Assembly (NCBI RefSeq): GCF_022984075.1
Contig: NZ_JALAAD010000001.1
Coordinates: forward strand, 1,530,455 to 1,594,454
Direction: 5' to 3'
Length of the DNA: 64,000 bases
Source: Synechococcus sp. C9
GTDB taxonomy: Bacteria; Cyanobacteriota; Cyanobacteriia; Gloeomargaritales; Gloeomargaritaceae
This document shows, piece by piece, positions 18,391 through 61,275 of the stretch; positions within the stretch are counted from its first letter, which is position 1, and the number at the start of each line of letters is the position of its first letter. A program made the translations under genes and the position numbers. A model generated the notes under the pieces. It searched no databases. It had not been told where the DNA came from and saw only the letters and a program-made list of their open reading frames with translations.

Positions 18391-18412
18391 ACAGGTTTAG
18401 ACAGATTAGAAC

Positions 18413-18514
18413 TATAGCAATCCTAAATGAGAATGGAACAGGGGGTCGCAGGGGCACCGCCCCCGTCCTTGGTTCTGGGGAATTTCCCTTTGTTAATCAG
18501 GTAGGATTGCTATA
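18413..18514 (-). repeat. Short interspersed repeat copy B (complete, inverted-end element)
   Basis: Best preserved copy in the window: starts TATAGCAATCCTA and ends TAGGATTGCTATA, with core GCAGGGGCACCGCCCCCG. It lies 23 bp after infC. The rest of the 18391-18672 gap shows no gene. Ends abut TA, suggesting a TA-targeting MITE. Confidence 0.85.
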
Positions 18515-33080: not shown

Positions 33081-33216
33081 ATCGCAAATACTTACATTAT
33101 CAATTTTAGGGGGAGCTTGGCAACTCAGACGAGGAAAAATGCTCCGACCTCCTGATCATCCTTTATTTGACATAAAAATTTACGGAAATTACATACGATT
33201 CATGAGTAATTACCAT

Positions 33217-33316
33217 ACAGCAGTCCTATTTGATTGGCATACAAAAATTCTCCAGAACCAAATCCGGGGGCGGTGCCCCTGCGACCCCTGTTCTATTTTC
33301 ATTCAGGATTGCTATA
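33217..33316 (+). repeat. Short interspersed repeat copy E (complete)
   Basis: From TACAGCAGTCCTATTTGATT to CAGGATTGCTATA with core CGGGGGCGGTGCCCCTGCG. Lies 25 bp from the 3' end of ftn2. The rest of 33081-33216 has no recognisable gene. Confidence 0.82.
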
Positions 33317-33341
33317 GTGTTGGTTTTCATCAAATCAAGGC

Positions 33342-38582: not shown

Positions 38583-39659
38583 CTAGGAACCCACCAGCCG
38601 CACCGTATCCCGAATGATTAAAAACACCCCCAACCCCAACAGCAGGAGTAACCCGGTTTGCATCACCCCCTCTTGCACCCGTGCCGGTAGCGGTCGTCCC
38701 CGCAAGGCTTCAATGAGTAAAAACACCAATTGCCCCCCATCCAGGGCAGGCAGAGGCAAAATATTGATCACCGCCAAATTGATGCTGATCAGAGCCGAAA
38801 ATTGCAGTAAACTCGCCCAACTCGACCGGGCCAACCCCGCCCCCATCGCCACAATCGCCACCGGCCCCGCCACCTGATCAGCCGTCTCCCGGAAATGTTG
38901 CACCAACTCCCAATACCCCTGCACCGTAGTCGTCAACAGGCGATGAAATTCCTGCGCCCCCAACCCAATCGCCTCCCCAAGATTGCGGGAATGACGGGTG
39001 CCCACACTCACATTGTCCTGCAATTGTACCCCGATCCGTCCCTGCCCATTGGGGGTTGCCTCGGGGATGACCGTCAGTTCAACCACTTGATTTTGCCGCT
39101 GAATTTGTAAGCGCACCGCCTGATTCGGTCGGGATTGAATCGCCTCCACCACCCGATTCACCGCCTCTTTCCCCGGTGCCAAAGCCTGACCATCCACCGC
39201 CAGGATCACATCCCCCGCCCGTAAACCCGCCCGTTGCGCCACCGCACTGGTATCCAGGGCAATTTGGGGAATCCGTACCCCCGGTTGATAAACCAATTGG
39301 GGAATGCCCACGGTCAAGACCTGGGTGGTCAAAATCAAATACGCAAACAGTAAATTCGCCAACACCCCGGCACTGATCACCACCGCCCGGTCAGCAATCG
39401 GACGGTTGCGGAGCAAATTCGGGTCATCCTGGGCAATGCCACTTTCCGGGTCCTCCTCAGGAAAACCCACATAGCCCCCCAGGGGAATCGCTCGGATGGC
39501 GTACTGCACCTCCTTCCCCTGGTACGACCAAAGCGCCGGGCCAAACCCTAGGGAAAATTGACTGACCCGAATCCCCTGCACCCGGGCGGCCAAAAAATGC
39601 CCCAACTCATGAACCGCAATGAGAATCGCTAAAACGCCGACCGCCGCTAAAATGGACAT
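38583..39659 (-). CDS. rseP: Site-2 protease, RseP-type intramembrane metalloprotease
   Basis: A 358-residue S2P protease. The zinc site is ILIAVHELGHFLAAR (HExxH) in the first membrane segment, paired with the NILPLPALDGG segment (NxxPxPxLDGG) in a later one. A PDZ domain (VAQRAGLRAGDVILAVDG) lies between. It cleaves membrane-bound anti-sigma or signal proteins in regulated proteolysis. ATG at 39659; next gene on this strand is 120 bp downstream (HEAT protein). Divergent from petB with about 240 bp between. Confidence 0.93.
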   Translation of the reverse strand: MSILAAVGVLAILIAVHELGHFLAARVQGIRVSQFSLGFGPALWSYQGKEVQYAIRAIPLGGYVGFPEEDPESGIAQDDPNLLRNRPIADRAVVISAGVLANLLFAYLILTTQVLTVGIPQLVYQPGVRIPQIALDTSAVAQRAGLRAGDVILAVDGQALAPGKEAVNRVVEAIQSRPNQAVRLQIQRQNQVVELTVIPEATPNGQGRIGVQLQDNVSVGTRHSRNLGEAIGLGAQEFHRLLTTTVQGYWELVQHFRETADQVAGPVAIVAMGAGLARSSWASLLQFSALISINLAVINILPLPALDGGQLVFLLIEALRGRPLPARVQEGVMQTGLLLLLGLGVFLIIRDTVRLVGS

Positions 39660-39900
39660 AAAAATTTTTTTTGGATAATACCAGTCTGTCTATCTTAACC
39701 TAATTTCAGGAACCCCTACTGATTCAGGACAGACACTCCCAGGGGCGCACCCCCTCACTTGGTTTGCCAATCCCAGGGCAAGGACCTGCTGGCAGTGCCC
39801 ACCGCTGTCGGGATACCAGAACCCCAACATTTGCGATACATTAAAAGATGTAAATTGGTTGGGTATCAGCCCGCCGACATCCATTTGAGAACCCGCACTT

Positions 39901-40569
39901 ATGTTTACCAAACAAGTGTCCGATTCTCCCTTGTACAAGTGGTTCGATGAACGGCTTGACCTGACGGAGATTTCCGATGATATTGCCAGCAAGTATGTCC
40001 CCCCCCATGTCAATATCTTTTACTGCTTGGGTGGCATTACATTGACTTGCTTTTTGATCCAATTTGCGACGGGGTTTGCCATGACCTTCTACTACCGGCC
40101 GACGGTGGCGGAAGCATTTAACTCCGTGTCCTATTTAATGACCCAGGTGAATTTTGGCTGGTTGATCCGTTCGATTCACCGGTGGTCCGCCAGTATGATG
40201 GTGTTGATGATGATTCTGCACGTCTTCCGGGTCTATCTGACCGGCGGGTTCAAAAAACCCCGGGAATTGACCTGGGTGACGGGGGTGGTGCTGGCGGTGC
40301 TGACCGTATCCTTCGGTGTGACGGGCTATTCCCTCCCCTGGGACCAGGTGGGCTACTGGGCGGCGAAAATCGTCACCGGGGTGCCGGAAGCGGTGCCGGT
40401 GGTCGGTTCCCTGGTCGTCGAACTGTTGCGGGGGGGTGTAGCCGTTGGGCAAGGCACCTTGACCCGGTTTTACAGTGCCCATACCTTTGTGTTGCCCTGG
40501 TTGACGGCGGTGTTTATGCTGATGCACTTCCTGATGATCCGCAAACAAGGGATTTCGGGCCCCCTTTAG
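39901..40569 (+). CDS. petB: Cytochrome b6
   Basis: A 222-residue cytochrome b6 of the thylakoid b6f complex. Cys42 in [13 protein letters not shown] binds the covalent haem ci; paired haem histidines are in [20 protein letters not shown] and in [19 protein letters not shown]. Four transmembrane helices. The N-terminus [20 protein letters not shown] is the 7-residue-longer form found in Synechocystis. It passes electrons between plastoquinol and the high-potential chain. petD follows after 44 bp in an operon. Confidence 0.98.
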
Positions 40570-40613
40570 GTTGACGCTGTGTTACCCTGGATTCCATCTG
40601 CGAGGCGAATTTT

Positions 40614-41096
40614 ATGTCCAACATTAAAAAACCCGATTTGTCCGACCCCAAATTGCGGCTGAAGCTGGCCAAGGGTTTGGGGCATAGTTCCTACGGGGAA
40701 CCGGCCTGGCCGAACGACCTGCTGTACATTTTCCCGGTGGTGATCATGGGCACCTTTGCCTGTGTGGTGAGTTTGGCGGTGCTCGACCCCAGTATGTTGG
40801 GGGAACCGGGCGACCCCTTTGCCACGCCCCTGGAAATTCTGCCGGAATGGTACTTCTACCCCACGTTTAATCTTTTGCGGGTTCTGCCCAACAAGTTGCT
40901 GGGGGTTTTGGCCATGGCTTCTGTGCCCCTGGGTTTAGCCTTGGTGCCGTTTATCGAAAACGTGAACAAGTTCCAAAATCCCTTCCGCCGTCCCGTAGCG
41001 ACCACCGTGTTTTTGGTGGGTACGTTTGTGACGATCTGGTTGGGGATTGGGGCGACGATGCCGATTAGCAAAGCCGTGACCCTAGGGCTGTTTTAG
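40614..41096 (+). CDS. petD: Cytochrome b6f subunit IV
   Basis: A 160-residue subunit [22 protein letters not shown] at the N-terminus, [20 protein letters not shown] (the PEWY plastoquinol-site motif) and three membrane helices ending [19 protein letters not shown]. Forms the split cytochrome b with PetB. Co-transcribed with petB; a hairpin follows at 41114-41155. Confidence 0.98.
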
Positions 41097-41113
41097 TCGG
41101 TGGGGCATGGCCG

Positions 41114-41155
41114 ATACCGTGGTGGGTGGGGGTTAACCTCTGACTGCCACGGTAT
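41114..41155 (+). terminator. Hairpin after petBD (possible terminator)
   Basis: ATACCGTGG at 41114-41122 pairs exactly with CCACGGTAT at 41147-41155 around a 24-nt loop that is G-rich. A short T-containing tail TGTGTATTTGG follows, so rho-independent termination is plausible though the U-run is poor. Confidence 0.5.
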
Positions 41156-41283
41156 TGTGTATTTGGGGGTTTCCAGACACCATAAACGCTTTACTTTTAC
41201 GTCAACATTCCCGTTTCACCCAAAAACCTGACTGTCGAAACGCTGGTTTGACCGAATCACAGCAGACCCAAAGGAGTAATGTC

Positions 41284-41526
41284 ATGGAAACAATCAAGAT
41301 TGAAATTTTGGGCACAGGTTGCAAAAAGTGCCAACAGCTTGAGGCAAATGCTAAAGAAGCTGTGGCCAATCTCAATTTAACTGCGGAAATTCTGCACATT
41401 ACTGACCCCATTGAAATCGCCAAACGAGGTGTAATGTCCACTCCCGCTCTGACGATCAACGGCAAAGTCGTCAGCAAAGGTCAAGTCATCAGTCCCGAAC
41501 AAATTCAGCCCTTATTACAGCGTTAA
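41284..41526 (+). CDS. Thioredoxin-like CxxC (redox-active disulfide) protein
   Basis: An 80-residue minimal thioredoxin fold beginning METIKIEILGTGCKKCQQL. Cys13 and Cys16 form the CKKC active site, and VMSTPALTINGKVVSKGQV carries the cis-Pro. This matches the small redox-active disulfide family (TIGR00412), commonly encoded next to YraQ-type permeases. The permease gene follows after 12 bp, so they form an operon. The ATG is preceded by AAGGAG. Likely partner: reduction of the permease CSC motif or of a metal/metalloid substrate; inference. Confidence 0.88.
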   Translation: METIKIEILGTGCKKCQQLEANAKEAVANLNLTAEILHITDPIEIAKRGVMSTPALTINGKVVSKGQVISPEQIQPLLQR

Positions 41527-41538
41527 AAAGTCAAATTG

Positions 41539-42537
41539 ATGTTCGATCCATTTTATCCTTTTGATTGGTTGGCAACCCAGATTGTCACCCAAATCTTCGG
41601 TTTGTCGATTGCATCGCATTTAGGGTCAAGTCTGCACTTCTTTCTTTACGATGTCCCCAAAGTCCTCACCTTGGTGATTGTGATCAGCTTTCTCGTTGGG
41701 ACATTTCAGAGTTTTTTAGAGCCAGAGCGTGTGCGCTTTTTTCTACAAGGAAAGCGTACCCTTGTGGGAAACATTTTGGCGGCACTGGTTGGCATGGTCA
41801 CACCTTTCTGTTCTTGCTCTGCGGTGCCTTTGTTCATTGGCTTCTTAGAAGCAGGTGTCCCGTTAGGCGTGACTTTCTCCTATCTGATCGCAGCGCCGAT
41901 GGTGAATGAGGTGGCTGTGATTCTTTTGTGGGGATTGTTTGGTTTGAAGGTGACACTGATCTACATCGGTTTTGGTGTGGGTTTAGCGATCGTCTCTGGA
42001 TACATCATCGGATTACTAAAATTAGAAAAATGGGTGGAACCCTTCGTCTGGGAACTGCAAAAAGCACGTCAAGTTATGCCGCTAGAGGATACAGACACCC
42101 TGGAACCAGTGGCACTGACTTGGCGGCAACGATTCAAGCAAGGACAGTTTCAAGCCAGCGAAATTGTGCGATCGGTTTGGCTTTATGTGGTGCTTGGCAT
42201 TGCGATTGGGGCGGGGATTCATGGCTATGTCCCGACCGATTTTATTGCCAAATATGCGGGTGTTCAAAATCCTCTCGCCGTCCCCCTCGCCGTCATTTTA
42301 GGTGTACCGCTCTATGCCAACATTGCGGGTGTCATGCCGATTACCGAAGCTTTAGTCCATAAAGGAATGCCGATGGGTACAATTCTAGCGTTCACCATGG
42401 CAGTCACCGCTTTATCGCTACCTGAAATGGTGATTCTCAAGAAGGTGCTACGCCCTCAGCTCTTGGCTGTTTTTGTTGGACTCATGACTGTTGGTATTAT
42501 TAGTATTGGTTACATCTTCAATGCAATTTTACTCTAA
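41539..42537 (+). CDS. YraQ/ArsP-like permease (DUF318 family)
   Basis: A 332-residue polytopic membrane protein with eight or so helices. The family mark VTPFCSCSAVPLFIGFLEAG holds two Cys (CSC) in a membrane loop; GVPLYANIAGVMPITEALVH is a second conserved segment. Related permeases (ArsP and SO_0444 types) export organoarsenicals or heavy metals such as Cu/Zn, but substrate cannot be told here. ATG at 41539 (a TTG at 41536 is one codon earlier). It lies between the thioredoxin-like gene and the P-type ATPase, with gaps of 12 and 6 bp. Confidence 0.86.
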   Translation: MFDPFYPFDWLATQIVTQIFGLSIASHLGSSLHFFLYDVPKVLTLVIVISFLVGTFQSFLEPERVRFFLQGKRTLVGNILAALVGMVTPFCSCSAVPLFIGFLEAGVPLGVTFSYLIAAPMVNEVAVILLWGLFGLKVTLIYIGFGVGLAIVSGYIIGLLKLEKWVEPFVWELQKARQVMPLEDTDTLEPVALTWRQRFKQGQFQASEIVRSVWLYVVLGIAIGAGIHGYVPTDFIAKYAGVQNPLAVPLAVILGVPLYANIAGVMPITEALVHKGMPMGTILAFTMAVTALSLPEMVILKKVLRPQLLAVFVGLMTVGIISIGYIFNAILL

Positions 42538-42543
42538 AAAGAG

Positions 42544-45468
42544 ATGCCGCAATTCCACCGACCCATATGGACTTTGACAATTGAAGAGGTCTATGAATCT
42601 TTAGGCACTACTGCCAAGGGATTATCCCAAAATGAAGCCCAACAGAGATTAAAAAAATTTGGTGCAAACGAATTACCTGAACCGGTGCAACGTCCTTTGT
42701 GGCTGAGGTTTACCGATCAATTGACGCATTTTATGGCTCTGTTACTGTGGGTAGCAGGGATTCTGGCATTTATCTCGCATACACCTGAATTGGGCTGGGC
42801 CATTTGGGCGGTCATTTGGATTAATGCGATCTTCAGCTTTTCGCAAGAGTTTCAAGCGGAGAAAGCCCTATCGGCGTTGAAAAAAGTCTTACCGATGCAG
42901 GTGAAAGTTTATCGAGACGGCGAACTCAAGCAAATTCCCGCCAGAGAACTGGTGCGTGGCGATGTCATCCAATTGGAGGAAGGCGATCGCATTCCCGCAG
43001 ATGCACGGTTAATCTCCGCCGAAAGTTTCTATCTCGATGTATCCGTGATGACAGGGGAATCGTTACCCGTGGCACGAAATCCTTACCCTGTGCGTCTGCG
43101 AGCAACTGTTCCCATGCGTGGCGGTAAAACGATACTGCGTCCAGGCGAACAACCGATGCAGGAAAAAGTCAATCCATCGGAAATTGCCAATCTGGTGTTG
43201 GCAGGTTCGACGGTCGTCGCAGGGAGAGGCGTGGCGGTGGTCTATGCCACGGGTGCGGAAACTGAGTTTGGACAGGTGGCGCATTTAACGACGGCCGTCA
43301 AGCGTGAACCCAGTACCTTAGAAATCCAAGTGGCGCAGATTGTGCGTCTGATTACGGCGATCGCCCTGGGTATGGGTGCCACGGTATTTGCCCTGAGCTA
43401 CTCGCTGATTGGCATGAATGTGATGGAGAGCTTTATTTTTGCGATTGGGATTATTGTGGCGAATGTCCCTGAAGGTTTATTGCCAACCGTCACCCTAGCG
43501 CTGGCTCTCGGTGTCAAGAGAATGGTGCGACGTAATGCCTTAGTGCGGAAACTTTCGGCAGTGGAAACCCTGAGCGCAACTACGGTAATTTGCACTGACA
43601 AGACTGGCACATTAACTAAAAATGAAATGACCGTGCGCTATCTGTGGCTCCCTACCGAACTAACGCCATCGGCTAATGCGCTCACCAACGGGTTAATTGA
43701 AGTGACAGGCGCAGGTTACGATCCGAGTAGTGGCACAGTGCCGATTCCTGCCGATTCGGAAACCGCATGGAAAGCCCAAGTTTTACTAATTGGTTCAGCG
43801 CTTTGTTCAAATGCTAAATTAGTGCATCTGAATTCTCCAAGTCGTTGGCAAGAAATTGGCGATCCCACTGAGGCGGCGCTCTTAGTGGCGGCAGAAAAAG
43901 CAGGATTGAATTTAGAAGCTCTTCAACAGCAATATCCCCGCTTGCGGGAACTTCCCTTTGACTCGCGTCGCTTAATGATGACCGTGGTTGTGCATTGGCA
44001 AGGTTCGGAATTATGGTCAAGTCCATCCCCGCATCTGGCTTTTACGAAGGGGGCACCCTTAGAAGTTCTTAAACACTGCCATTGGATTTTACGTGATGGC
44101 AAACCTCAGGAGTTAACCCATGACGATTGGGATGAAGTCGTCAGGGCTAATGATGACTTGGCAAGACAAGGATTTCGGGTGTTAGGGCTTGCCGCGCGTC
44201 AGGGCGGACAGGAACTGCTCGATCTTAAGGCTCAGGATTTAGAACAGGATTTGATCTTTATTGGCTTGGTCGCCATGTTCGATCCACCCCGTGACGAAGT
44301 ACCCAAGGCGGTCGCCCAATGTCATCAAGCGGGGATCAAAGTGACAATGGTGACGGGTGACTATGGACTAACCGCCGAAGCGATTGCCCGTCAGATTGGA
44401 CTCGTCAGCGATAAAGTGCGGGTGGTCACGGGTGAAGACATGGGACATCTCTCGGACGCGCAACTCAAGCAAGTGCTGAAATATCGTCATGGCTTAGTAT
44501 TTGCGCGGATGTCACCTGAGCATAAATTGCGATTGGTACAGGCATATAAAGATATTGGCGAAATTGTGGCGGTGACAGGGGATGGGGTGAATGATGCTCC
44601 CGCCTTACGGGCTGCGAATATTGGCATTGCGATGGGGCAGAATGGCACGGATGTGGCTCGGGAAGCGGCGGATATTGTGTTAACCGATGACAACTTTGCG
44701 ACGATTGTAGTGGCGATTGAGCAGGGTCGGGCAATTTATCAGAATATTCGCAAGTTCATGACCTATATTCTTGCCTCAAATGTGCCGGAAATTGTGCCAT
44801 TTTTAGCCATGGTCGCTTTCAAGATTCCGCCTGCGCTCACGATTTTACAAATTCTAGCGGTGGATTTAGGTACTGATATGGTTCCCGCCCTGGCCTTAGG
44901 AGCGGAAACACCCGAACCAGGAATGATGAATCGTCCACCCCGTGCGAAACAGGAATTTCTGCTCAATGCTCCCGTAATCATCCGCGCCTATCTATTTCTA
45001 GGTGTAATTGAGGCAGTTCTCTCAATGTTGGGATTCTTTATTGTTTGGTGGAGCTATGGCTACTCGCTGGCAGATTTGCAACAAGTGACACCGATGATTG
45101 TCAACCATACTGCCGATCCCGCAGTGACAGGCATCTATCGCCAAGCAACGACTATGACGCTAGCGGCGATCGTGGCTTGTCAAGTTGGTAATTTATTCGT
45201 TTGCCGTTCGTCGTGGGGTTCTATCTTCCGTCAGTCTTTGTCAAACAACAGTTTGATCTGGTTAGGAATCACGGTTGAATGTGTGGCTCTCTTCGCCTTC
45301 ATCGACTTCGCTCCCTTTAGACAAGTATTCGGAACTGCCCCGTTAGCCAATTGGCATTGGTTGCTGTTGCTGGCTTGTCCAGTAATTTTGATCACTGCCG
45401 AAGAGCTTCGCAAGCTATTACTTCGTCATCGCAGACGAGGCAGTGTTCATTCAAACCACCGACTCTAA
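42544..45468 (+). CDS. P-type cation ATPase of the Na,K/Ca (P2) group, Na,K-ATPase-like
   Basis: A 974-residue pump. N-terminal cation-ATPase domain, TGES at the actuator (DVSVMTGESLPVAR), phosphorylated Asp352 in CTDKTGTLTKNEMTV, hinge VTGDGVNDAPALR. In M4 VANVPEGLLPTVT and in M5-M6 SNVPEIVPFL (Ser745, Asn746, Glu749) and VDLGTDMVP (Asp774, Asp778) repeat the ion-binding residues of animal Na,K-ATPase, so Na+ or K+ is plausible, unlike Ca2+ pumps (usually PEGLPAV). It starts 6 bp after the permease stop. Two HIP1 octamers (42983-42990, 43357-43364) lie in the gene. Confidence 0.92.
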   Translation: MPQFHRPIWTLTIEEVYESLGTTAKGLSQNEAQQRLKKFGANELPEPVQRPLWLRFTDQLTHFMALLLWVAGILAFISHTPELGWAIWAVIWINAIFSFSQEFQAEKALSALKKVLPMQVKVYRDGELKQIPARELVRGDVIQLEEGDRIPADARLISAESFYLDVSVMTGESLPVARNPYPVRLRATVPMRGGKTILRPGEQPMQEKVNPSEIANLVLAGSTVVAGRGVAVVYATGAETEFGQVAHLTTAVKREPSTLEIQVAQIVRLITAIALGMGATVFALSYSLIGMNVMESFIFAIGIIVANVPEGLLPTVTLALALGVKRMVRRNALVRKLSAVETLSATTVICTDKTGTLTKNEMTVRYLWLPTELTPSANALTNGLIEVTGAGYDPSSGTVPIPADSETAWKAQVLLIGSALCSNAKLVHLNSPSRWQEIGDPTEAALLVAAEKAGLNLEALQQQYPRLRELPFDSRRLMMTVVVHWQGSELWSSPSPHLAFTKGAPLEVLKHCHWILRDGKPQELTHDDWDEVVRANDDLARQGFRVLGLAARQGGQELLDLKAQDLEQDLIFIGLVAMFDPPRDEVPKAVAQCHQAGIKVTMVTGDYGLTAEAIARQIGLVSDKVRVVTGEDMGHLSDAQLKQVLKYRHGLVFARMSPEHKLRLVQAYKDIGEIVAVTGDGVNDAPALRAANIGIAMGQNGTDVAREAADIVLTDDNFATIVVAIEQGRAIYQNIRKFMTYILASNVPEIVPFLAMVAFKIPPALTILQILAVDLGTDMVPALALGAETPEPGMMNRPPRAKQEFLLNAPVIIRAYLFLGVIEAVLSMLGFFIVWWSYGYSLADLQQVTPMIVNHTADPAVTGIYRQATTMTLAAIVACQVGNLFVCRSSWGSIFRQSLSNNSLIWLGITVECVALFAFIDFAPFRQVFGTAPLANWHWLLLLACPVILITAEELRKLLLRHRRRGSVHSNHRL

Positions 45469-45494: not shown

Positions 45495-45594
45495 TATAGC
45501 AATCCTAAATGAAAATGGAATAGGGGTCGCAGGGGCACCGCCCCCGTCCTTGGTTCTGGAGAATTTCTGCTCACTAATCAAATAGGACTGCTAG
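45495..45594 (-). repeat. Short interspersed repeat copy G
   Basis: Starts TATAGCAATCCTAAATG with core GCAGGGGCACCGCCCCCG, ending GGACTGCTA where a second element has joined (TAGAGTCATTT). Follows the ATPase gene by 27 bp. Confidence 0.82.
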
Positions 45595-45650: not shown

Positions 45651-45679
45651 TGGGCACCTCTACAAATTCAAAGTTAGCA

Positions 45680-45749
45680 GTCGCAGGGGGGCACCCCCGC
45701 CCTTGGTTCTGGAGAATTCTTGTTTGTTAATCAAGTAGGATTGCTATAT
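45680..45749 (-). repeat. Short interspersed repeat copy H (partial)
   Basis: GTCGCAGGGGGGCACCCCCG core with GGTTCTGGAGAATTCTTG and right end TAGGATTGCTATA. Its left end is replaced by a variant tail CTACAAATTCAAAGTTAGC, the reverse complement of sequence also seen near 59550 and 61130. Confidence 0.75.
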
Positions 45750-45813: not shown

Positions 45814-45947
45814 CCATTAGCCATCCATTACCTGTGCCAACCGCTTGGTGGTGATATTACAAAAAATTAATAAAAATGAAAAGAGTATGAAAAACACCCT
45901 GTCCCAATGGTATGCTGGTCATTATGAAAACATTATGAAAAGTACCA

Positions 45948-46859
45948 ATGCGGGTTTGGTGGGTTTGGGGGTTGGGACTGCTGGTCTGGGGGTGTCAGGG
46001 GACTTCGCCGCCGCCCCAGGCGCAGGAAAAGGTGATTTTAACTACCTTTACCGTACTGGCGGACATGACCCGGAATGTGGCTGGGGAGCAGGTACGGGTG
46101 GAATCCATCACCAAGCCGGGAGCAGAAATTCACGGGTACGAACCCACGCCGATGGACATTGCCCAGGCCCAAAACGCCAGTTTGATTTTAGAAAATGGTC
46201 TGGGTTTGGAGCGGTGGGCGGAGCGATTTTACAGCAATTTGCGGGATGTGCCCAGGGTGACGGTGAGCCAGGGGATTACGCCGATTCCCATCCGTTCCGG
46301 TGCGTATCAAACCCAACCCAACCCCCATGCTTGGATGTCCCCTAAACTGGCGTTAATTTATGTGGAAAATATCCGCCAAGCTCTGGTAGAATTCGACCCT
46401 AGCAATGAAGCTATTTATACTCAAAATGCCCGACAATATCAACAAAAAATTCAACAATTAGACCAAAAATTACGGCAATCTTTGAGCGTCATTCCTACTT
46501 CCCAAAGGGTTTTGGTTTCCTGTGAAGGGGCATTTAGTTATTTGGCACGGGATTACCAACTCCAAGAAATTTATCTCTGGCCGATCAATGCGGAACAGCA
46601 AGGTACACCCCAACAAATTCGCCGCACGATTGAGCAGGTACGTGCCAGTAAGGTACCGGCGGTGTTTTGTGAAAGTACCGTGAATGACCAGGCGCAAAGG
46701 CAGGTTGCCCGGGAAGCAAAAGTGTCATTTGGAGGGATTTTTTATGTGGATTCCCTAACCCCACCAGGGGGTGCTGCCCCCACCTACTTGCACCTTTTGG
46801 AACACAACATCAATACCCTCATGCAAGGGTTACAAAATCAAGCTAATTCCAGGAGTTAA
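45948..46859 (+). CDS. mntC: Manganese/zinc ABC transporter solute-binding lipoprotein
   Basis: A 303-residue cluster A-I binding protein. Signal MRVWWVWGLGLLVWGCQG with lipobox Cys. Metal-site residues appear in order: His in KPGAEIHGYEP, His in PNPHAWMSP, Glu in CESTVNDQ, and Asp in FYVDSLTPPGG, the His-His-Glu-Asp set of Mn-binding proteins. It delivers Mn2+ (possibly Zn) to the MntAB permease for photosystem II. First gene of an mntC-mntA-mntB operon; the ATPase gene begins 4 bp after its stop. Upstream ATGs in other frames give no related peptide. Confidence 0.92.
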   Translation: MRVWWVWGLGLLVWGCQGTSPPPQAQEKVILTTFTVLADMTRNVAGEQVRVESITKPGAEIHGYEPTPMDIAQAQNASLILENGLGLERWAERFYSNLRDVPRVTVSQGITPIPIRSGAYQTQPNPHAWMSPKLALIYVENIRQALVEFDPSNEAIYTQNARQYQQKIQQLDQKLRQSLSVIPTSQRVLVSCEGAFSYLARDYQLQEIYLWPINAEQQGTPQQIRRTIEQVRASKVPAVFCESTVNDQAQRQVAREAKVSFGGIFYVDSLTPPGGAAPTYLHLLEHNINTLMQGLQNQANSRS

Positions 46860-46863
46860 CCCC

Positions 46864-47604
46864 ATGCGTCAAACCCCAAGTATTGCTTTAGAAAATGTTA
46901 CTGTTACCTATCACGATCAGGTGGCATTACACGGGATTAATTTAGCGCTACCACCGGGAACCATTGTGGGTTTGGTAGGCATGAATGGCAGTGGCAAATC
47001 CACGCTGTTTAAGACGATTATGGGCTTTATGACACCAAAAACCGGGCGGGTGTGGATTGAGGGGTTGCCCATTCATCAAGCACAAAAAAAGGGGTGGGTG
47101 GCGTACATTCCCCAAAGCGAACAGGTGGATTGGCAATTTCCGGTGAGTGTGCAGGATGTGGTGATGATGGGTCGCTACGGCTATATGAATTGGTTGCGAA
47201 TTCCTCGCCCGATTGACCAGCGCATGGTGGAAATGAGCCTGCGACAAGTGGATATGTTACCCCTGAAAGACCGGCAGATTGGGGAACTGTCAGGAGGACA
47301 AAAAAAACGGGCTTTTCTGGCAAGAGCTTTGGCTCAACAGGCGCATATTTTACTGCTCGATGAACCCTTTAATGGGGTGGATATGAAAACGGAACGGGAA
47401 ATCATTCAATTACTGATGGGGTTACGGGATGCGGGGCATACGATTTTGGTTTCGAGTCACGATTTAAGTGGAATTTCCACCTTTTGTGACCAAGTTATTT
47501 TGATCAACCAAACTATTTTGGCTTACGGCGCGACGCAAGAAGTGTTTACCCCCGAAAATCTCAGCCGCACCTTTGGGGTCACATTTCCAGAGATTATTTC
47601 CTAG
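46864..47604 (+). CDS. mntA: Manganese/zinc ABC transporter ATPase
   Basis: A 246-residue nucleotide-binding subunit. Walker A GLVGMNGSGKSTLFK, Q-loop YIPQSEQVDW, signature LSGGQKKRAFLARAL, Walker B ILLLDEPFNGVD and switch His in LVSSHDLSG. The DW after the Q-loop and the MNGSGKST form are usual in the Mn/Zn group. The ATG at 46864 is used since earlier frames overlap mntC. The permease gene follows after 25 bp. Confidence 0.94.
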   Translation: MRQTPSIALENVTVTYHDQVALHGINLALPPGTIVGLVGMNGSGKSTLFKTIMGFMTPKTGRVWIEGLPIHQAQKKGWVAYIPQSEQVDWQFPVSVQDVVMMGRYGYMNWLRIPRPIDQRMVEMSLRQVDMLPLKDRQIGELSGGQKKRAFLARALAQQAHILLLDEPFNGVDMKTEREIIQLLMGLRDAGHTILVSSHDLSGISTFCDQVILINQTILAYGATQEVFTPENLSRTFGVTFPEIIS

Positions 47605-47629
47605 TATCTGTAATCAAAGGCTGGTGTTT

Positions 47630-48469
47630 ATGTGGGATTGGTTGATAGCACCCTTGCAGTATGAATTTATGGTCAAAGCCCTGTTGGTTAGTGGTTTTGT
47701 CGGGGTGGTGTGTGGGGTTTTGTCCTGCTATATGACCCTCAAGGGTTGGGCGTTGATGGGGGATGCGGTTGCCCATGCGGTGACCCCTGGGGTGGTTTTA
47801 GCCTATGTCTTGAATCTGCCTTTGGCGGTGGGGGCGTTGATTTTTGGGGTGGGTTCCGTGTGGTTGATGGGGTGGATTCACAAGCAAACCCGGATTCGGG
47901 AAGATGCGGTGATGGGTGTGGTGTTTACGGGATTGTTTGCTTTGGGTTTAGTTTTAATTTCTAAAACCCCAAGTAATGTGGATTTTTTGCATATTTTATT
48001 TGGCAATGTGCTGGGCATTCCCACTTCAGAAATGGTGCAAACCTTGGTAATTGGCGGGTTGACTTTAGGGATACTTTTGGTGTTTAAGAATGATTTGCTT
48101 TTGTTTTGTTTTGACCCCACCCACGCCCGTTCGATTGGGATCAATATTACGGGGTTACATTATTTACTACTAACGCTGTTATCCCTAACCATTGTGGTGG
48201 CATTGCAGACGGTGGGAATTGTGCTGGTGGTGGCGATGTTGATTACGCCGGGGGCGACGGCTTATTTGCTCACGGATCGCTTTGACCGGATGTTAATCCT
48301 GGCGGTGCTTTCCGGGCTAGGGGCAAGTGGGTTGGGGACTTATTTGAGCTATTATCTGGATGCTTCGACGGGGGGCTGTATTGTATTAGTACAAACGCTG
48401 TTGTTTCTCCTGGCGATGGTCTGGGCACCCAAGTATGGCTGGCTCCGGCGGGGGCAACGCCCGGGTTAA
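47630..48469 (+). CDS. mntB: Manganese/zinc ABC transporter permease
   Basis: A 279-residue FecCD/ZnuB-type permease with eight or nine helices. Family motif: GWALMGDAVAHAVTPGVVLAY and the MLITPGATAYLLTDRFDR segment in the C-terminal half. It starts at MWDWLIAPLQYEFMVKALLV. Last gene of the mntCAB operon; the spacing to glgP is 105 bp. Confidence 0.94.
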   Translation: MWDWLIAPLQYEFMVKALLVSGFVGVVCGVLSCYMTLKGWALMGDAVAHAVTPGVVLAYVLNLPLAVGALIFGVGSVWLMGWIHKQTRIREDAVMGVVFTGLFALGLVLISKTPSNVDFLHILFGNVLGIPTSEMVQTLVIGGLTLGILLVFKNDLLLFCFDPTHARSIGINITGLHYLLLTLLSLTIVVALQTVGIVLVVAMLITPGATAYLLTDRFDRMLILAVLSGLGASGLGTYLSYYLDASTGGCIVLVQTLLFLLAMVWAPKYGWLRRGQRPG

Positions 48470-48574
48470 AAACATTCCGGTTCAAAAGGTCAGGGAATGG
48501 AAATTGGGGTTAAAAAATGTTGCTGATCGGGCGGGGGAGGTTACACTGGGAGCCAATGCACTGTCGGTAAAAGT

Positions 48575-51133
48575 ATGCGCCCAATTCGCACGTTTAAGGT
48601 GTCTCCTGCGCTGCCGCCCCGGTTGGAACCCCTGCGGGCTTTGGCTTACAACCTCTACTGGGATTGGAGCGATGAGGTGAAGGAACTGTTTCGCCGGTTG
48701 GACCCGGATTTGTGGGAACAGAGCCGTCAGAACCCGGTATTGATGCTGGGGACGATCAGCCAGGAGCGGTTGCAGGCGGCGAGTACGGATGATGGGTTTT
48801 TGGCGCACCTGGAGCGGGCAGAACGGGAATTGCAGGACTATTTGCAGGAACGCAGTTGGTACCAGCGGCAACGGGGGACGCATACCCAGGAATGCTATGC
48901 CTATTTTTCGGCGGAATTTGGCTTGACTACGGCACTGCCTATCTACTCCGGGGGGTTGGGTGTGTTGGCAGGGGATCACCTGAAGTCGGCTAGTGATTTG
49001 GGTTTGCCGTTGGTGGGTGTGGGGCTATTGTACCAACAGGGTTATTTTCAACAGTATCTGACGGCGGATGGCTGGCAACAGGAACGTTATCCGATCAATG
49101 ATTTTTACAATTTGCCCTTGCATTTGGAGCGGCAGGCGGATGGGTCGGAACTGCGGATTGAGGTGATTTTTCCCCAGCGGGTGGTGTATGCCCGGATTTG
49201 GCGGGTGGATGTGGGGCGGGTGCCATTGTACTTATTAGATACGAACATTCCCCCCAATAATCCCTATGACCAGGACATTACCGACCAGTTGTACGGTGGG
49301 GATTTGGATGTGCGGATTCACCAGGAGATGATGTTGGGGATTGGGGGGATTAAGGCTCTGCGGGCGTTGGGTCTGCAACCGACGGTCTATCACATGAATG
49401 AGGGGCATTCGGCGTTTTTGTCCCTGGAGCGGATGCGGGAGTTGATGGTGGAGCAGGGGTTGCCGTTTGCGGCGGCGAAGGAGGCGGTACAAGCCAGTCA
49501 GGTGTTTACCACCCATACACCGGTGCCTGCGGGGATTGATCTGTTTCCGCCGGATAAAATTCTCTACTACCTGGGGCGGTATCGGGAAATTTTTGGTCTC
49601 TCGGAGCAGGAGTTTTTGTCCTTGGGTCGGGAGCAGACCGGGGATTTTCAAGCCTCGTTTAATATGGCAATTTTTGCGATTCGGATGGCGAGTTTGGTCA
49701 ATGGGGTAAGTCAACTGCACGCCCGGGTGAGTCGGCAGATGTTTGGCTCCCTGTGGGGGTTGACCCCGGAGGTGGAGGTGCCGATTCGGGGGATTACCAA
49801 TGGGGTGCATGGGCGCAGTTGTGTGGCACCGGCGACCCAGAATCTTTACCAGCGCTATATCAGCCCGGATTGGTGGGCATTGCCTGCGGAAGCCCCGGAG
49901 TGGCAACGGGTGGAGGCGATCCCGGATGAGGAATTGTGGCGCATCCATGACCGGGCGAAGATGCAGATGATCCTCTACGTGCGGGAACGACTGCGGCGGG
50001 CGTTGGAGGAGCGGGGGGCATCCCAGGCGGAAATTCTCAAAACCCGGGAGGTGCTGGACCCGGAGGCATTGACCATTGGTTTTGCCCGGCGGTTTGCCAC
50101 CTACAAGCGGGCGAATTTGTTTTTAGCCCAGCCGGAGCGGTTGTTGAAAATGTTGGCGGACCGGCAACGCCCCATCCAGTTTGTGTTTGCGGGGAAGGCG
50201 CATCCCAAGGACCACCCAGGTAAGGAGATGATCCGGGAGATTATTCATTTTGCCAAGGAACATGGGTTGGAGCGGCAGATCGTGTTTGTGCCCAACTACG
50301 ACATCAATACGTCCCGGTTGATGGTGGCGGGGTGCGATGTGTGGCTGAATAATCCCCGTCGTCCCCGGGAAGCCTCGGGCACCAGTGGCATGAAGGCGGC
50401 GATGAATGGGGTGCCCAACCTGAGTACGCTGGATGGTTGGTGGGCGGAGGCGGATTACCTGCAGACGGGCTGGCCGATTGGTCGGGGCGAAGAGTACACG
50501 GATACCCAACTCCAGGATGAATTGGATGCCAATGCCCTGTACCAAACCCTTGAGGAAGATGTCCTGCCTTTGTACTACCAGCGGGATGCGGAGGGACTGC
50601 CCCGGGGCTGGTTGGCAAAAATGAAGGCGGCGATTCGGATCAATACCCCGTTTTTCAATACGGAGCGGATGGTGCAACAGTACGCCCAGGAAGCCTATTT
50701 CCCGGTGAGTGACCGCTGGAGCCATTTATCAGCCCAGGGCTATGCCAAGGCGCAGGGGTTGGCGGACTGGAAAGCGCGGGTGTTTCACCATTGGTACGAC
50801 ATCAAAATTCGGGAGGTGACGGCGCAAGCCCCCAAGGAGGTGCGGGTGTATGAACCGATTGGGGTGACGGCGCAAATTTACCTGGGAGCCTTGACCCCCG
50901 AGGATGTGCAGGTGCAACTGTACCAGGGGGAGGTGGATGCCACCGGGCATATCCCTGTCGGGCAGGTGGTGCCGATGACCTGTCAAGGACAAACTGGCGA
51001 TGGCAGTTACACCTACACGGGGGAGGTGAGTTACCCCAACAGTGGGCTGCAGGGGTTTGCGGTGCGGTTATTGCCCCATCACCCGGACTTGGCCAATCCC
51101 TTTGAATTGGGCTTGATCCACTGGGGCAGTTAA
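48575..51133 (+). CDS. glgP: Alpha-glucan (glycogen) phosphorylase, short bacterial type
   Basis: An 852-residue GT35 enzyme of the DUF3417 + phosphorylase kind. The N-terminal FKVSPALPPRLEPLRALAYN belongs to DUF3417; then YSGGLGVLAGDHLKSASDLG (glucan loop), MNEGHSAFLSLER, GFARRFATYKRANL, QFVFAGKAHPKDHPGKE and the PLP-phosphate region EASGTSGMKAAMNGVPNLST with the reactive Lys. It degrades glycogen to glucose-1-phosphate at night. Tail-to-tail with surE, stops overlapping by 4 bp. Confidence 0.96.
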   Translation: MRPIRTFKVSPALPPRLEPLRALAYNLYWDWSDEVKELFRRLDPDLWEQSRQNPVLMLGTISQERLQAASTDDGFLAHLERAERELQDYLQERSWYQRQRGTHTQECYAYFSAEFGLTTALPIYSGGLGVLAGDHLKSASDLGLPLVGVGLLYQQGYFQQYLTADGWQQERYPINDFYNLPLHLERQADGSELRIEVIFPQRVVYARIWRVDVGRVPLYLLDTNIPPNNPYDQDITDQLYGGDLDVRIHQEMMLGIGGIKALRALGLQPTVYHMNEGHSAFLSLERMRELMVEQGLPFAAAKEAVQASQVFTTHTPVPAGIDLFPPDKILYYLGRYREIFGLSEQEFLSLGREQTGDFQASFNMAIFAIRMASLVNGVSQLHARVSRQMFGSLWGLTPEVEVPIRGITNGVHGRSCVAPATQNLYQRYISPDWWALPAEAPEWQRVEAIPDEELWRIHDRAKMQMILYVRERLRRALEERGASQAEILKTREVLDPEALTIGFARRFATYKRANLFLAQPERLLKMLADRQRPIQFVFAGKAHPKDHPGKEMIREIIHFAKEHGLERQIVFVPNYDINTSRLMVAGCDVWLNNPRRPREASGTSGMKAAMNGVPNLSTLDGWWAEADYLQTGWPIGRGEEYTDTQLQDELDANALYQTLEEDVLPLYYQRDAEGLPRGWLAKMKAAIRINTPFFNTERMVQQYAQEAYFPVSDRWSHLSAQGYAKAQGLADWKARVFHHWYDIKIREVTAQAPKEVRVYEPIGVTAQIYLGALTPEDVQVQLYQGEVDATGHIPVGQVVPMTCQGQTGDGSYTYTGEVSYPNSGLQGFAVRLLPHHPDLANPFELGLIHWGS

Positions 51134-51810
51134 CACACCCAAATCTGGCTAATGGCAATCTGTCCCCCAAAACACACGGCTACGTCCGCCGCCGGGTCGT
51201 AGGGACGTTGTTGGTACACCCCTTGATAGAGAAATCCCTGGGGGGTCGCTGTGTACCGGATGGGCAGGGGTTGGGTGCAGGGGGGGCAAAAAACTACTTC
51301 CGGTTCCGGGGCGGTGGGGGGTAGGTGGGGAAAATTCACATTCCAAAAACTGCCCGGTGCTGGCTTTTGTAATAAAATCTGCAGGACGTGTTCGCTCCAG
51401 CGTTGGGTGCGTTGCCAGTCAATAGCCTCACCCCGTTGCTGGTACTGGGACAGGGCAATGGCGGGCACCCGATGCAAAGCCGCTTCCCGCACGGCGGCCA
51501 CGGTTCCCGATTGGTAGAGGTCCACCCCCAGATTGGCACCCTGGTTTACCCCGGCGATCACCCAGGCGGTGTCCGGTTGCCAGTGGGCGAGGGTGAGGCG
51601 GACACAATCCACGGGGGTGCCTTGGACGGCGTAGCGGTGGGGGGAACGAAGTTCGACGGGGATGGGGTGTTGGGTGGTGATCTGGTGGCCACAGCCGGAA
51701 AACTGGGTATGGGGAGCGGCCACCAGAGCGTTTGGGAGTACCTGGGTGAGGACGTGCAATCCCGGTGCATCAATGCCGTCGTCGTTGGTGAGGAGGATGG
51801 CCACCGCCAT
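51130..51810 (-). CDS. surE: 5'/3'-nucleotidase SurE
   Basis: A 226-residue SurE phosphatase. Motif LLTNDDGIDAPGLHVL holds the metal-binding Asp pair; then NQGANLGVDLYQSGTVAAVREA with the Ser/Thr-rich phosphate loop, and VIAGVNQG. It hydrolyses nucleoside monophosphates and polyphosphates, linked to stationary-phase survival. The ATG at 51810 starts MAVAILLTNDDG. Convergent with glgP. Confidence 0.95.
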   Translation of the reverse strand: MAVAILLTNDDGIDAPGLHVLTQVLPNALVAAPHTQFSGCGHQITTQHPIPVELRSPHRYAVQGTPVDCVRLTLAHWQPDTAWVIAGVNQGANLGVDLYQSGTVAAVREAALHRVPAIALSQYQQRGEAIDWQRTQRWSEHVLQILLQKPAPGSFWNVNFPHLPPTAPEPEVVFCPPCTQPLPIRYTATPQGFLYQGVYQQRPYDPAADVAVCFGGQIAISQIWVC

Positions 51811-51917
51811 GATTTAATCCTGATAGGGCACCTCTATCCTAATTATTTGCCTTACCAGCAAGTTATCTCGCTGGAATACCCATCCTGAAGCACCCTATAT
51901 TTAACCCTATATTTAAT

Positions 51918-52310
51918 TTAATCCTGGATATAGGGTTCACCCCGCACCAAAGCCATTTCCGCCCGCAGAAATTCCCGACCCAGATAGGCCGCATGGCTGA
52001 GTTGGCTGACCGGCTGAAAGGTTTGGCATTCTTCAAAAATCTGCACACAGAGTTCTTTGGCGGTGCGCCCCCGAAAGATATGGCTGGGTTCCCGTTGGAC
52101 GGCCCCCCGGGCGGGGATGGGTTGGCCGGTATCGGGGTCAACGGCTAAGCCCCGGGCATCAATGGCGGTGGTGAACCATTTGGCGTAGATGTAGCCCTCC
52201 TGGGGGTCAATGTAAATAATGAAATAACCCGCCGGGTCGAGGTCGAGGTGGCGTTTGGAAAGATTTTCATCAATGCAACGGATTTGTTCCGCCCAATCAA
52301 TGGACATCAT
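51918..52310 (-). CDS. DUF4346 cyanobacterial protein
   Basis: A 130-residue protein starting MMSIDWAEQIRCIDENLSKR. Domain motifs: DPAGYFIIYIDPQEGYIYAKW, GLAVDPDTGQPIPARGAV and FRGRTAKELCVQIFEE, with SHAAYLGREFLRAEMALVRG near the end, characteristic of DUF4346 in cyanobacteria. Function unknown; homologs sometimes sit beside pterin or photosynthesis genes. It is divergent from the permease gene with essentially no gap if the permease ATG at 52309 is used. Confidence 0.78.
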   Translation of the reverse strand: MMSIDWAEQIRCIDENLSKRHLDLDPAGYFIIYIDPQEGYIYAKWFTTAIDARGLAVDPDTGQPIPARGAVQREPSHIFRGRTAKELCVQIFEECQTFQPVSQLSHAAYLGREFLRAEMALVRGEPYIQD

Positions 52311-53403
52311 GGCAACAGTTACGGGGACGAAGTTTGGGTATTCTTTCTATTGTGACCTGTTTGGGGTAGTCCTGGTGGGGCGGTGGCAACAGATACGCAA
52401 TTATGTGCTGGTGCGTTTGCTCCTGGCACCGGTGATGCTCTGGACGGTGGTGACGTTGGTGTTTTTGCTATTGCGGGCAACGCCGGGGGACCCGGTGGAT
52501 GCGATTTACGGGGGGCGGGCACCAGCGTCGGTGAAGGAAGCTCTGCGGGTTCAGTTGGGCTTGGATCAGCCCTTGTGGGGGCAATACCTGGCTTATCTGG
52601 GGCAATTGCTCCGGGGGGATTTGGGCACCTCCCTGACCGAACCGGGGCGCTCGGTGGGGGAAATCATTGGGGCGTACCTCCCGGCTACGGTGGAATTGGG
52701 GCTGGCAGGCTTTCTGGTGGCGGCGGGGCTGGGGGTGGGACTGGGGTTAATGACTGGCAGTCGCCCGGAGTCTAGCCCTTTGACGATTGGGGGTAAGGTA
52801 TTTAGTTTGGTGAGCTATGCGGTGCCCCTGTTTTGGCTGGGGATGCTCTTGCAGTTGTGGTTGAGTGTGAATTGGCGGTGGTTTCCCTTGGGGGTGCGGT
52901 TTCCAGTGCAGGAGATGCCCCCGGCGGGAGCGACCGGGTTATATGTGCTGGACAGTCTGCTGGCTGGTAATTGGCGGCAGTTGCGAATTGCCCTGCATCA
53001 CTTAGCCCTACCGAGTCTGACCTTGGGGGTGGTCTTGAGCGGCCTGCTGGAACGGATGGTGCGGGTGCAGGTGCGGGCGCAGTGGCGGGGGGATTACGTC
53101 GAGGCGGCTCGGGCGAGGGGCATTCCCGTCCGGTGGCTGTTGGGGCATCATGTATTACCCAATGCCCTGATTCCGGTGGTTGCTCTGCTGGGATTAACCT
53201 TGGCTTCCCTACTGGGGGGGGCGATTGTTACGGAAGTGACATTTTCCTGGCCGGGGTTGGCGAACCGTTTGTATGAGGCGATCAATCTGCGAGACTATCC
53301 CACCGTGCAGGGAATTGTGGTGTTTTTGGCAGTGGTGGTGGTGGTTTTGAGCATTCTTATTGATGTATTAACCGCCTTTATTGACCCCCGGGTGCAGTTG
53401 TGA
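52309..53403 (+). CDS. Oligopeptide/dipeptide-type ABC transporter permease (DppB-like)
   Basis: About 364 residues from ATG 52309, or 342 from the GTG at 52375, which starts VGRWQQIRNYVLVRLLLAPV like a typical DppB and is equally likely. Six transmembrane helices. Motifs: VFLLLRATPGDPVDA, GLDQPLWGQYLAYLGQLLRG, DYVEAARARGIPVRWLLG (EAA loop) and FSWPGLANRLYEAINLRDYP. It imports peptides together with a DppC, ATPases and a binding protein; none adjoins it. The solute-binding lipoprotein at 2.7 kb is a possible partner. Coding composition is high in Gly/Leu as in the family. Confidence 0.87.
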   Translation: MATVTGTKFGYSFYCDLFGVVLVGRWQQIRNYVLVRLLLAPVMLWTVVTLVFLLLRATPGDPVDAIYGGRAPASVKEALRVQLGLDQPLWGQYLAYLGQLLRGDLGTSLTEPGRSVGEIIGAYLPATVELGLAGFLVAAGLGVGLGLMTGSRPESSPLTIGGKVFSLVSYAVPLFWLGMLLQLWLSVNWRWFPLGVRFPVQEMPPAGATGLYVLDSLLAGNWRQLRIALHHLALPSLTLGVVLSGLLERMVRVQVRAQWRGDYVEAARARGIPVRWLLGHHVLPNALIPVVALLGLTLASLLGGAIVTEVTFSWPGLANRLYEAINLRDYPTVQGIVVFLAVVVVVLSILIDVLTAFIDPRVQL

Positions 53404-53540
53404 TCAGGGTGTATAAATACTCAGAATAATTTCTATTTTTACTTAACAATTCCTTCGGAGCTATTAAGCCTTTTGGTAGAGAATTTCCGCAGGTTCCACT
53501 GAGGTGATTACACTGGATTAAAGACCCCCCCAGGCACATT

Positions 53541-54494
53541 ATGGACGTGACATCTTGTTTGATCAATTGCTTACCGATTGGGGTAGTCCTGACCGAGGAG
53601 GGGGGGCGGATTTTGCATTGCAATCAGGTGATGGCGGATTGGTTTTCCCTTGATCCCCAGCAGGTACAGGGCAATGGGATTACGGAATTTTGGCCGGAGT
53701 TGGCCGCCTATTTGCGGTGGCAGGAATTGGGGGGACGGGTGCGGTTATCCACCCCGGAGGGTTGGCTGATGATGCGGGTGCTGGTGCGGAAGTTAGCCCA
53801 GGGGGCGCAGGGGTGGTTGGTGTGGAGTTTTGTGCCGGAACATAGCCGGGATTTGGAGCAGTCCCAGCAGGAATTTATTGACACCATTAGCCACGAATTG
53901 CGTACCCCGTTGACCAGTATCAAGGGGTTTGTGGATACCCTCTTGGCACCGCAAAATCGTTTTAGCCGTAGCCAGACCCGCCATTTTTTGGAGATTGTCC
54001 AGACCCAGGTGGCGCAACTGTCCGCTTTGGTGGAGGGGGTGTTGGCGGTGTCCCGCTCGCCGGTACTGCCGGGGCATTTTCGGCCGGTACAGGTGGGGGA
54101 TTTGGTGCCCCAGGTGATGCAGGATTTGGCGGTGCGGCATGGGGAGGAGCGGGTCGAGTGGCGCATTCAGGATTTGCCTGCGGTGTGGAGTGACCCGGGC
54201 TTGTTGGTGCCGATTCTGGTGCAGGTGTTGGACTACGCCCTGACCCATACGCCGGTGGATACCCGGGTGCAGGTGCGGGGTTGTCCGGGGGGGACGGGGG
54301 TGCAAATCGGGGTGCCGGAGTTGGATTTGGGGGAACTATGGTATCCCTTTGGGCCGACCCGACCAGGGATGGGGCTGTATGTGGCGCAGATGTTGGTGGA
54401 GCGGTTGCAGGGGCGGTTACTCCTGGGACAGGGACTGACGTTGGAATTGCCCCGGGCGGCTCGAATGACAACACCAGTAGCGGGTTTGTCCTAG
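53541..54494 (+). CDS. Histidine kinase-like protein with PAS domain and eroded ATP site
   Basis: A 317-residue cytosolic protein with no membrane segment. PAS-like domain 1-100 (LPIGVVLTEEGGRILHCNQV), HisKA with His118 in IDTISHELRTPLTSIKGFVD. The HATPase is shorter than normal and lacks standard boxes: the N-box reads LDYALTHTP where NAxKYTP is usual, and the DxGxGI box is absent (GVPELDLGELWYPFG). GMGLYVAQMLV remains of the G2 box. It may be an inactive or phosphatase-biased kinase, or a mutated gene. No response regulator adjoins it. Confidence 0.75.
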   Translation: MDVTSCLINCLPIGVVLTEEGGRILHCNQVMADWFSLDPQQVQGNGITEFWPELAAYLRWQELGGRVRLSTPEGWLMMRVLVRKLAQGAQGWLVWSFVPEHSRDLEQSQQEFIDTISHELRTPLTSIKGFVDTLLAPQNRFSRSQTRHFLEIVQTQVAQLSALVEGVLAVSRSPVLPGHFRPVQVGDLVPQVMQDLAVRHGEERVEWRIQDLPAVWSDPGLLVPILVQVLDYALTHTPVDTRVQVRGCPGGTGVQIGVPELDLGELWYPFGPTRPGMGLYVAQMLVERLQGRLLLGQGLTLELPRAARMTTPVAGLS

Positions 54495-54535
54495 GTCGTG
54501 GTGATCTTGTTATCTTGGGAACCGCTCTTAAAGTC

Positions 54536-54624
54536 TTGAGAATGGAACAGGGGTCGCAGGGGCACCGCCCCCGTCCTTGGTTCTGGAGAATTTCTGTTTG
54601 TTAATCAAGTAGGATTGCTATATT
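54536..54624 (-). repeat. Short interspersed repeat copy I
   Basis: TTGAGAATGGAACAGGGGTC start, core CGCAGGGGCACCGCCCCCG, TTCTGGAGAATTTCTG and right end TAGGATTGCTATA. Left inverted end is missing. Confidence 0.8.
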
Positions 54625-54630
54625 TATTAA

Positions 54631-59235: not shown

Positions 59236-59237
59236 TA

Positions 59238-59307
59238 ATTCTCCAGAACCAAGTACGGGGGCGGTGCCCCTGCGACCCCTGTTCCACTCTCATTTAGGAT
59301 TGCTATA
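59238..59307 (+). repeat. Short interspersed repeat copy K, right half
   Basis: ATTCTCCAGAACCAAGTACG, core GGGGGCGGTGCCCCTGCG and right end TAGGATTGCTATA. Confidence 0.82.
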
Positions 59308-60966: not shown

Positions 60967-61275
60967 ATTATGTCTTGAGGGCATTTCTAAATAGTAGGGT
61001 TACCCAGAACCAAAACGGGGCGGTGCCCTGCGAACCCTGTTCTAAACTTAGTTAAGACTACTATGGCGATCCTACTTGATTTACAACCAAAAATTCTCCA
61101 GAACCAAGGGCGGGGGTACCCCCCTGCGACCGCTAACTTTGAATTGATAGAGGTGCTTTTAAGTTAAATAAAAATTATGTCTTGAGGGCATTTCTAAACA
61201 TTAGGGTTACCCAGAACCAAAACGGGGCGGCGCCCTGCGACCCCTGTTCCACTCTCATTTAGGACTGCTATATAT
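60967..61275. repeat. Repeat array with 67-bp direct duplication
   Basis: ATTATGTCTTGAGGGCATTT opens at 60967 and again at 61174; both copies run 67 bp through CAGAACCAAAACGGGGCGG to CCCTGCGA with four mismatches. Between them lies a variant unit ending CTAACTTTGAATTGATAGAG, and the array ends with TTTAGGACTGCTATA. No gene is seen between 60919 and 61305. Confidence 0.8.

Follow-up and report, generated by a model that had tools for sequence, protein, structure and literature searches.

The closest known counterpart of the thioredoxin–permease part of the locus described here is the ars operon of Pseudanabaenaceae (arsR / GAPDH-arsJ-thioredoxin-ArsP permease). In five loci of this family (L202, L203, L204, L207, and L210), the genes of the ArsJ-associated GAPDH and of ArsJ lie upstream of the pair on one strand, and a divergent ArsR-type regulator was in view in four of them. 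The L204 representatives scored above the NCBIfam cut-offs for both GAPDH (578 against 450 bits) and ArsJ (584 against 400 bits). The third gene of the locus resembles those of the alpha subunits of P2C (IIC) Na,K-/H,K-ATPases and of their homologues in prokaryotes, the latter in general lacking the beta-subunit assembly motif (PMC9609216). The literature surveyed contained one purification of a Na+-stimulated ATPase from a cyanobacterium, and that enzyme was classed as F-type (PMC2928168). The locus lies in a 64-kb stretch of DNA from Synechococcus sp. C9, which was analysed as a whole (the window). Its thioredoxin and permease genes follow each other in the same order and with the same spacing as in the Pseudanabaenaceae operon, and the permeases are 86–88% identical, but the regulator, GAPDH, and ArsJ are missing and a P2C-like pump has been added behind the pair. 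The block thus appears to be a known kind of arsenic/thiol efflux pair in a rare chimeric form, and we consider it likely that it is a horizontally acquired chimeric operon composed of a putative efflux pair for arsenic or another thiophilic metalloid and a putatively Na+-exporting pump. This interpretation retains the foreign origin, the pairing, and the unusual pump proposed in an earlier note made from the sequence alone, while its proposals of a unit from one donor and of an ion load shared by permease and pump were not supported.

The 4.2-kb block contains three ORFs on the + strand (41284–41526, 41539–42537, and 42544–45468) with spacers of 12 and 6 bp, and the ORF and Pfam analyses bore out the previously described order of a CKKC thioredoxin, a CSC permease, and a P-type ATPase. 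The first gene encodes an 80-residue protein with a CKKC active site, which matched Thioredoxin_3 (PF13192) and the MTH895 structure 1ilo (E 1e-13), and its CxxC motif and TIGR00412 score (93.4 bits, curated cut-off 62) assign it to the MTH895/ArsE thioredoxin-like family. The second gene starts with ATG at 41539 (TTG at 41536 is a possible alternative) and its product belongs to the ArsP_1 permeases (PF03773, 234.7 bits against the gathering cut-off of 32.3). The permease has only two cysteines, Cys91 and Cys93 of the CSC motif, both being near-invariant across 31 relatives; sequence search found no solved structure for this family. The SaoE and SO_0444 efflux transporters (NCBIfam) belong to the same ArsP_1 superfamily, but membership in either family was rejected by the scores (128 and 87 bits against the cut-offs of 325 and 300, respectively), and the literature searches on MTH895 and on SaoE found nothing on point. 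The leader preceding the thioredoxin gene (41155–41283, + strand) differs from the region downstream of petD in the host genus. The last ~45 bp of the leader showed a weak likeness to that of the G466 pair (46 bp directly before the thioredoxin gene, 78% identity to L199/L183). Promoter and terminator scans of the block gave results at the chance level.

The pairing of the first two genes, which the earlier note had called known, proved near universal among close permease loci: a thioredoxin gene was found 5′ of the permease gene in every one examined, including L201 (= L182), where the ORF caller alone had missed it. The surroundings of the pair differ among lineages. Outside the five GAPDH-arsJ loci, the usual genes upstream of it are those of a MerR-type regulator, seen at 13 of 30 loci, and of a sulfur transferase of the Blh type, seen at 8 of the 30, and some loci also carry persulfide dioxygenase, rhodanese, TauE, or DsbA-like genes. 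The pair-associated MerR is closest to the types for Hg, Cd/Pb, and Zn, yet it scored under every cut-off. The pairs of these lineages sit with MerR, Blh, and persulfide genes and not with arsenic genes, which speaks against the arsenic reading and, together with the Blh-type genes that adjoin the pump at seven loci, would suit a pair handling reactive sulfur (persulfide, sulfite) or soft heavy metals instead of arsenic. We regard this alternative as possible but clearly the less probable one, as ArsJ and its associated GAPDH, whose genes precede the pair in five loci, have a dedicated arsenic role and the thioredoxin belongs to an ArsE-like family. Judging from the gene neighbourhoods, the common denominator of all these contexts would be thiophilic toxic species, for which arsenic is the best single guess, and the window pair represents a known, probably arsenic-exporting type of thioredoxin–permease pair. 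In such an arsenic-exporting pair, the CKKC thioredoxin would keep the CSC cysteines of the permease, or the thiol-bound substrate, in reduced form and the permease would export a trivalent arsenical or a similar thiophilic metalloid. The host genome possesses its own Acr3 (as does G239, a genome of the same genus) and lacks ArsJ. The second pair of genome G072 (L173) forms a thioredoxin–permease operon that is followed on the same strand by the genes of a rubrerythrin-like protein and of a different P-type ATPase, which is 34% identical to the window pump (span +1236 to +4986 from the permease start), and may be a parallel case.

The third gene encodes a 974-residue P2-type cation ATPase according to Pfam, and its fold is clear from the sequence. 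The best PDB matches were Na,K-ATPase alpha chains (543 bits), with the bacterial Ca-ATPase (452 bits), SERCA (417 bits), and H,K-ATPase behind them, and the likeness of the M4–M6 residues to those of the animal Na,K-ATPase, pointed out earlier, was upheld by the VPEGLL, SNVPE, and DLGTD motifs. All residues of the P2C ion site (M4 PEGL, M5 SNxPE, M6 DxxTD) are present (E310, S745, N746, P748, E749, D774, T777, and D778). Among the cyanobacterial orthologues, E310 of M4, S745, N746, and E749 of M5, and D774, T777, and D778 of M6 are kept in 72–77 of 77 sequences, and a proline at position 748 occurs in just 28 of them. The pump shares the fold, the catalytic motifs, and these M4–M6 residues with the P2C alpha subunits and differs from them in three respects. 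The site-III Asp of M8 in Na,K-ATPase is replaced by Asn at position 883 (Asn in 72 of 77 orthologues), the SYGQ/E beta-subunit assembly motif before M8 is absent at the aligned place, and the score for TIGR01106 (IIC) was 618 bits against a cut-off of 946, although this model was still the top one among all P-type models. For these reasons, the enzyme is designated here as P2C-like and not as a demonstrated Na,K-ATPase. The missing Asp and the score below the cut-off count against the Na+-pump reading and, like the lack of the beta motif, would be compatible with a Ca2+ (P2A-like) pump or a pump for some other cation. This alternative seems unlikely to us, since the M5 proline and the first Asp of M6 are of the Na,K type and the Na,K chains were the top PDB matches. 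The host encodes two further P2-type paralogues with 39% identity, one of which is Ca-pump-like (P2A-like) and has SNIGE and NLATD, while the other has NGGE and NMVSS. As a Na+ pump, the ATPase would be produced from the same transcript as the pair and would export Na+ at the expense of ATP, K+ or H+ serving as the counter-ion. Among cyanobacterial proteins, this pump family is a candidate for Na+ export powered by ATP.

The foreign origin suspected in the earlier note was confirmed by synteny, composition, and the distribution of the permease. The block is located downstream of petBD, and synteny with the same-genus genome G239 breaks at 41154 and 45856. The flanking segments 38590–41154 and 45856–54495 are both collinear with G239, but at two distant places of that genome, thus the foreign segment lies where the host chromosome has been rearranged. 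The permease was not found in any of seven other genomes from the genus and family of the host, and no pump orthologue was found in G239, the one genome of the seven that was searched for the pump. At its end, the foreign segment borders on a ~99-bp repeat that is dispersed in the host genus (45495–45593, with a partial second copy at 45652–45717), which had 58 matches in G000, 53 in G239, and none in lw0831. Copies of this intergenic repeat, some of which are in tandem, also occur in the window at 18411–18514, 33215–33318, 54545–54625, 59237–59307, and 61093–61167. As reported earlier, the HIP1 octamer GCGATCGC occurs exactly twice in the 64 kb, both times inside the block (42983–42990 and 43357–43364). 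It is rare genome-wide as well (20 copies in 2.96 Mb), which gives a Poisson probability of 4e-4 for two sites within 4.2 kb, while the count alone is weak, two sites being reached in 7 of 100 shuffles. The 7-mer half sites (GCGATCG/CGATCGC) were found seven times in the block and never in the other 59.8 kb. The reported scarcity of G/C runs also held, as runs of at least four bases had a frequency of 4.3/kb in the block against 17.5/kb outside, and none of 207 same-size windows had a lower value. Codon usage was shifted likewise: GC3 of the block genes was 0.46–0.50 compared with the mean of 0.64 (SD 0.09) for the other genes of the window, which formed the whole comparison set. The plasmid search returned only matches of 60–80% and the trio was not found on any plasmid. 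The remaining HIP1 sites of the genome are mostly clustered in islands (G000:C1 45–52 kb, 801–805 kb, and 1732–1739 kb; L181, L162, and L163), whose genes, judged by eye, resemble defence-type genes (restriction, helicase, methylase), therefore HIP1 may mark other imported DNA, too.

The same three-gene order was found in Pseudanabaena sp. lw0831 (L044), which shows 84% DNA identity over exactly 41284–45445 and has unrelated flanks. The permease–pump junction is near-identical in the two loci (6 or 7 bp), and both HIP1 sites occupy the same positions in the ATPase gene of lw0831 (nt 440 and 814). The dS values to lw0831 were 1.74 for the thioredoxin, 1.39 for the permease, and 0.62 for the ATPase. 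In the ATPase tree, the window pump fell within the Pseudanabaena group with lw0831 and its relatives (SH-aLRT 100). In the DNA tree of the first 870 nt of the permease gene, the window sequence grouped with the non-Pseudanabaena genomes G294/G466/G433 (100/100), while the lw0831 permease grouped mainly with its own family (95/90). Forcing the window and lw0831 permeases together was rejected at the DNA level (AU test, p = 7e-34), the rejection being stronger with more taxa, and was not rejected at the protein level (p 0.125). Informative sites supported the G294/G466 side up to 42441 with scattered exceptions and the lw0831 side in eight of nine cases from 42501, which places the inferred crossover in the 42441–42501 interval of the permease gene. 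The NAILL* end of the permease and the short junction behind it are common to the window and lw0831. The block consequently combines at least two foreign cyanobacterial sources: the thioredoxin gene and the permease gene over its 5′ 0.9 kb descend from one lineage, and the last ~0.1 kb of the permease gene with the ATPase gene derives from a Pseudanabaena-type cassette. The thioredoxin and permease body of lw0831 belong to a lineage different from that of the window and are native to the lw0831 family.

Movement of the trio as one preformed functional unit from a single HIP1-rich cyanobacterium, as the earlier note had suggested, could account for the common gene order, the identity over the whole block, and the common HIP1 sites, and it is possible that an unsampled donor already carried the complete chimera and transferred it in one piece. 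Nevertheless, we consider such a transfer improbable. The lw0831 type was not the source of the permease body, the dS values differ more than twofold between the genes, the lw0831 pair is native to its own family, and no single closest relative was common to all three genes. A HIP1-rich source is supported for the pump and not for the block as one donation. The chimeric operon would rather consist of two pieces that were united by a homologous crossover within the permease gene. One would comprise an ArsE-type thioredoxin gene and the body of an ArsP-type permease gene, both from a cyanobacterial lineage other than Pseudanabaena, and the other a permease tail followed by the P2C-like ATPase gene, from a cassette like that of lw0831. 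According to the simplest history, a Pseudanabaena-type genome would have acquired the pump gene behind the pair in a single event, and a later homologous crossover in the permease 3′-end may have exchanged the thioredoxin gene and permease body for divergent versions, before or after entry into the host, the genus of which otherwise lacks the pair. The lw0831 locus also contains a decayed second permease fragment 3′ of the pump and, 5′ of the thioredoxin gene, a sequence that matches a DsbA-like protein at its end, which fits recombination between operon copies. The block can be regarded as a clear example of an operon built through intragenic recombination, where a pump was appended behind a conserved resistance pair.

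In a comparison of 80 named loci with the pump and about 35 with the pair, the three genes were adjacent only in the window and in lw0831. The addition of this pump to the pair is indeed unusual, as had been remarked, while a conserved functional unit of three genes is not shown, because the trio is rarely adjacent elsewhere; the earlier note itself had named such rarity as refuting a transferred cassette. A monovalent or metal ion load shared by permease and pump found no support either, as the genes around the pair suggest arsenic and thiol chemistry. It appears fairly probable that the pump is a passenger, which is transcribed with the pair and has no function in common with it, given that the trio was found in only one other genome and that, among the 80 pump loci, the pump orthologues had no arsenic gene near them but hox, PFK, and PEP synthase genes. 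On the other hand, Blh-type genes adjoin both modules elsewhere, and the 6-bp spacer and the low dN/dS of the pump (0.046/0.62 vs lw0831) show that the pump has been kept intact in the operon. That the pump and the thioredoxin-linked permease form one efflux unit, in which the ion gradient of the pump drives the permease, is hardly probable. If true, a transferable resistance module would combine a primary Na+ pump with a metalloid exporter under redox control.

Pump orthologues were present in ~30 of 386 sampled cyanobacterial genomes. Their neighbour families were named by Pfam matches of representatives and recognisable sequence. Standalone pump genes had hox-type hydrogenase genes within 10 kb in 8 of 80 loci (L052, L055, L068, L079, L083, L104, L112, and L121), which belong to several separate branches and show differing gene orders. 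PFK or PEP synthase genes were found near the pump in 9 of 80 loci and Blh/persulfide genes in 7 of 80. These neighbours point to a role in ion homeostasis during dark or low-oxygen metabolism, and their recurrence makes this a testable hypothesis; we found no paper on the pump together with hox. One pump gene without the pair, at L042:10001-12925 in a MAG labelled Microcoleus, starts with MPQSHQPLWA and has the AAAAAGATG junction, as does the cassette version, and its tree neighbours L043/L053 differ from it in starting with MASLHQPLWA, thus L042 may represent the cassette after the loss of the pair.
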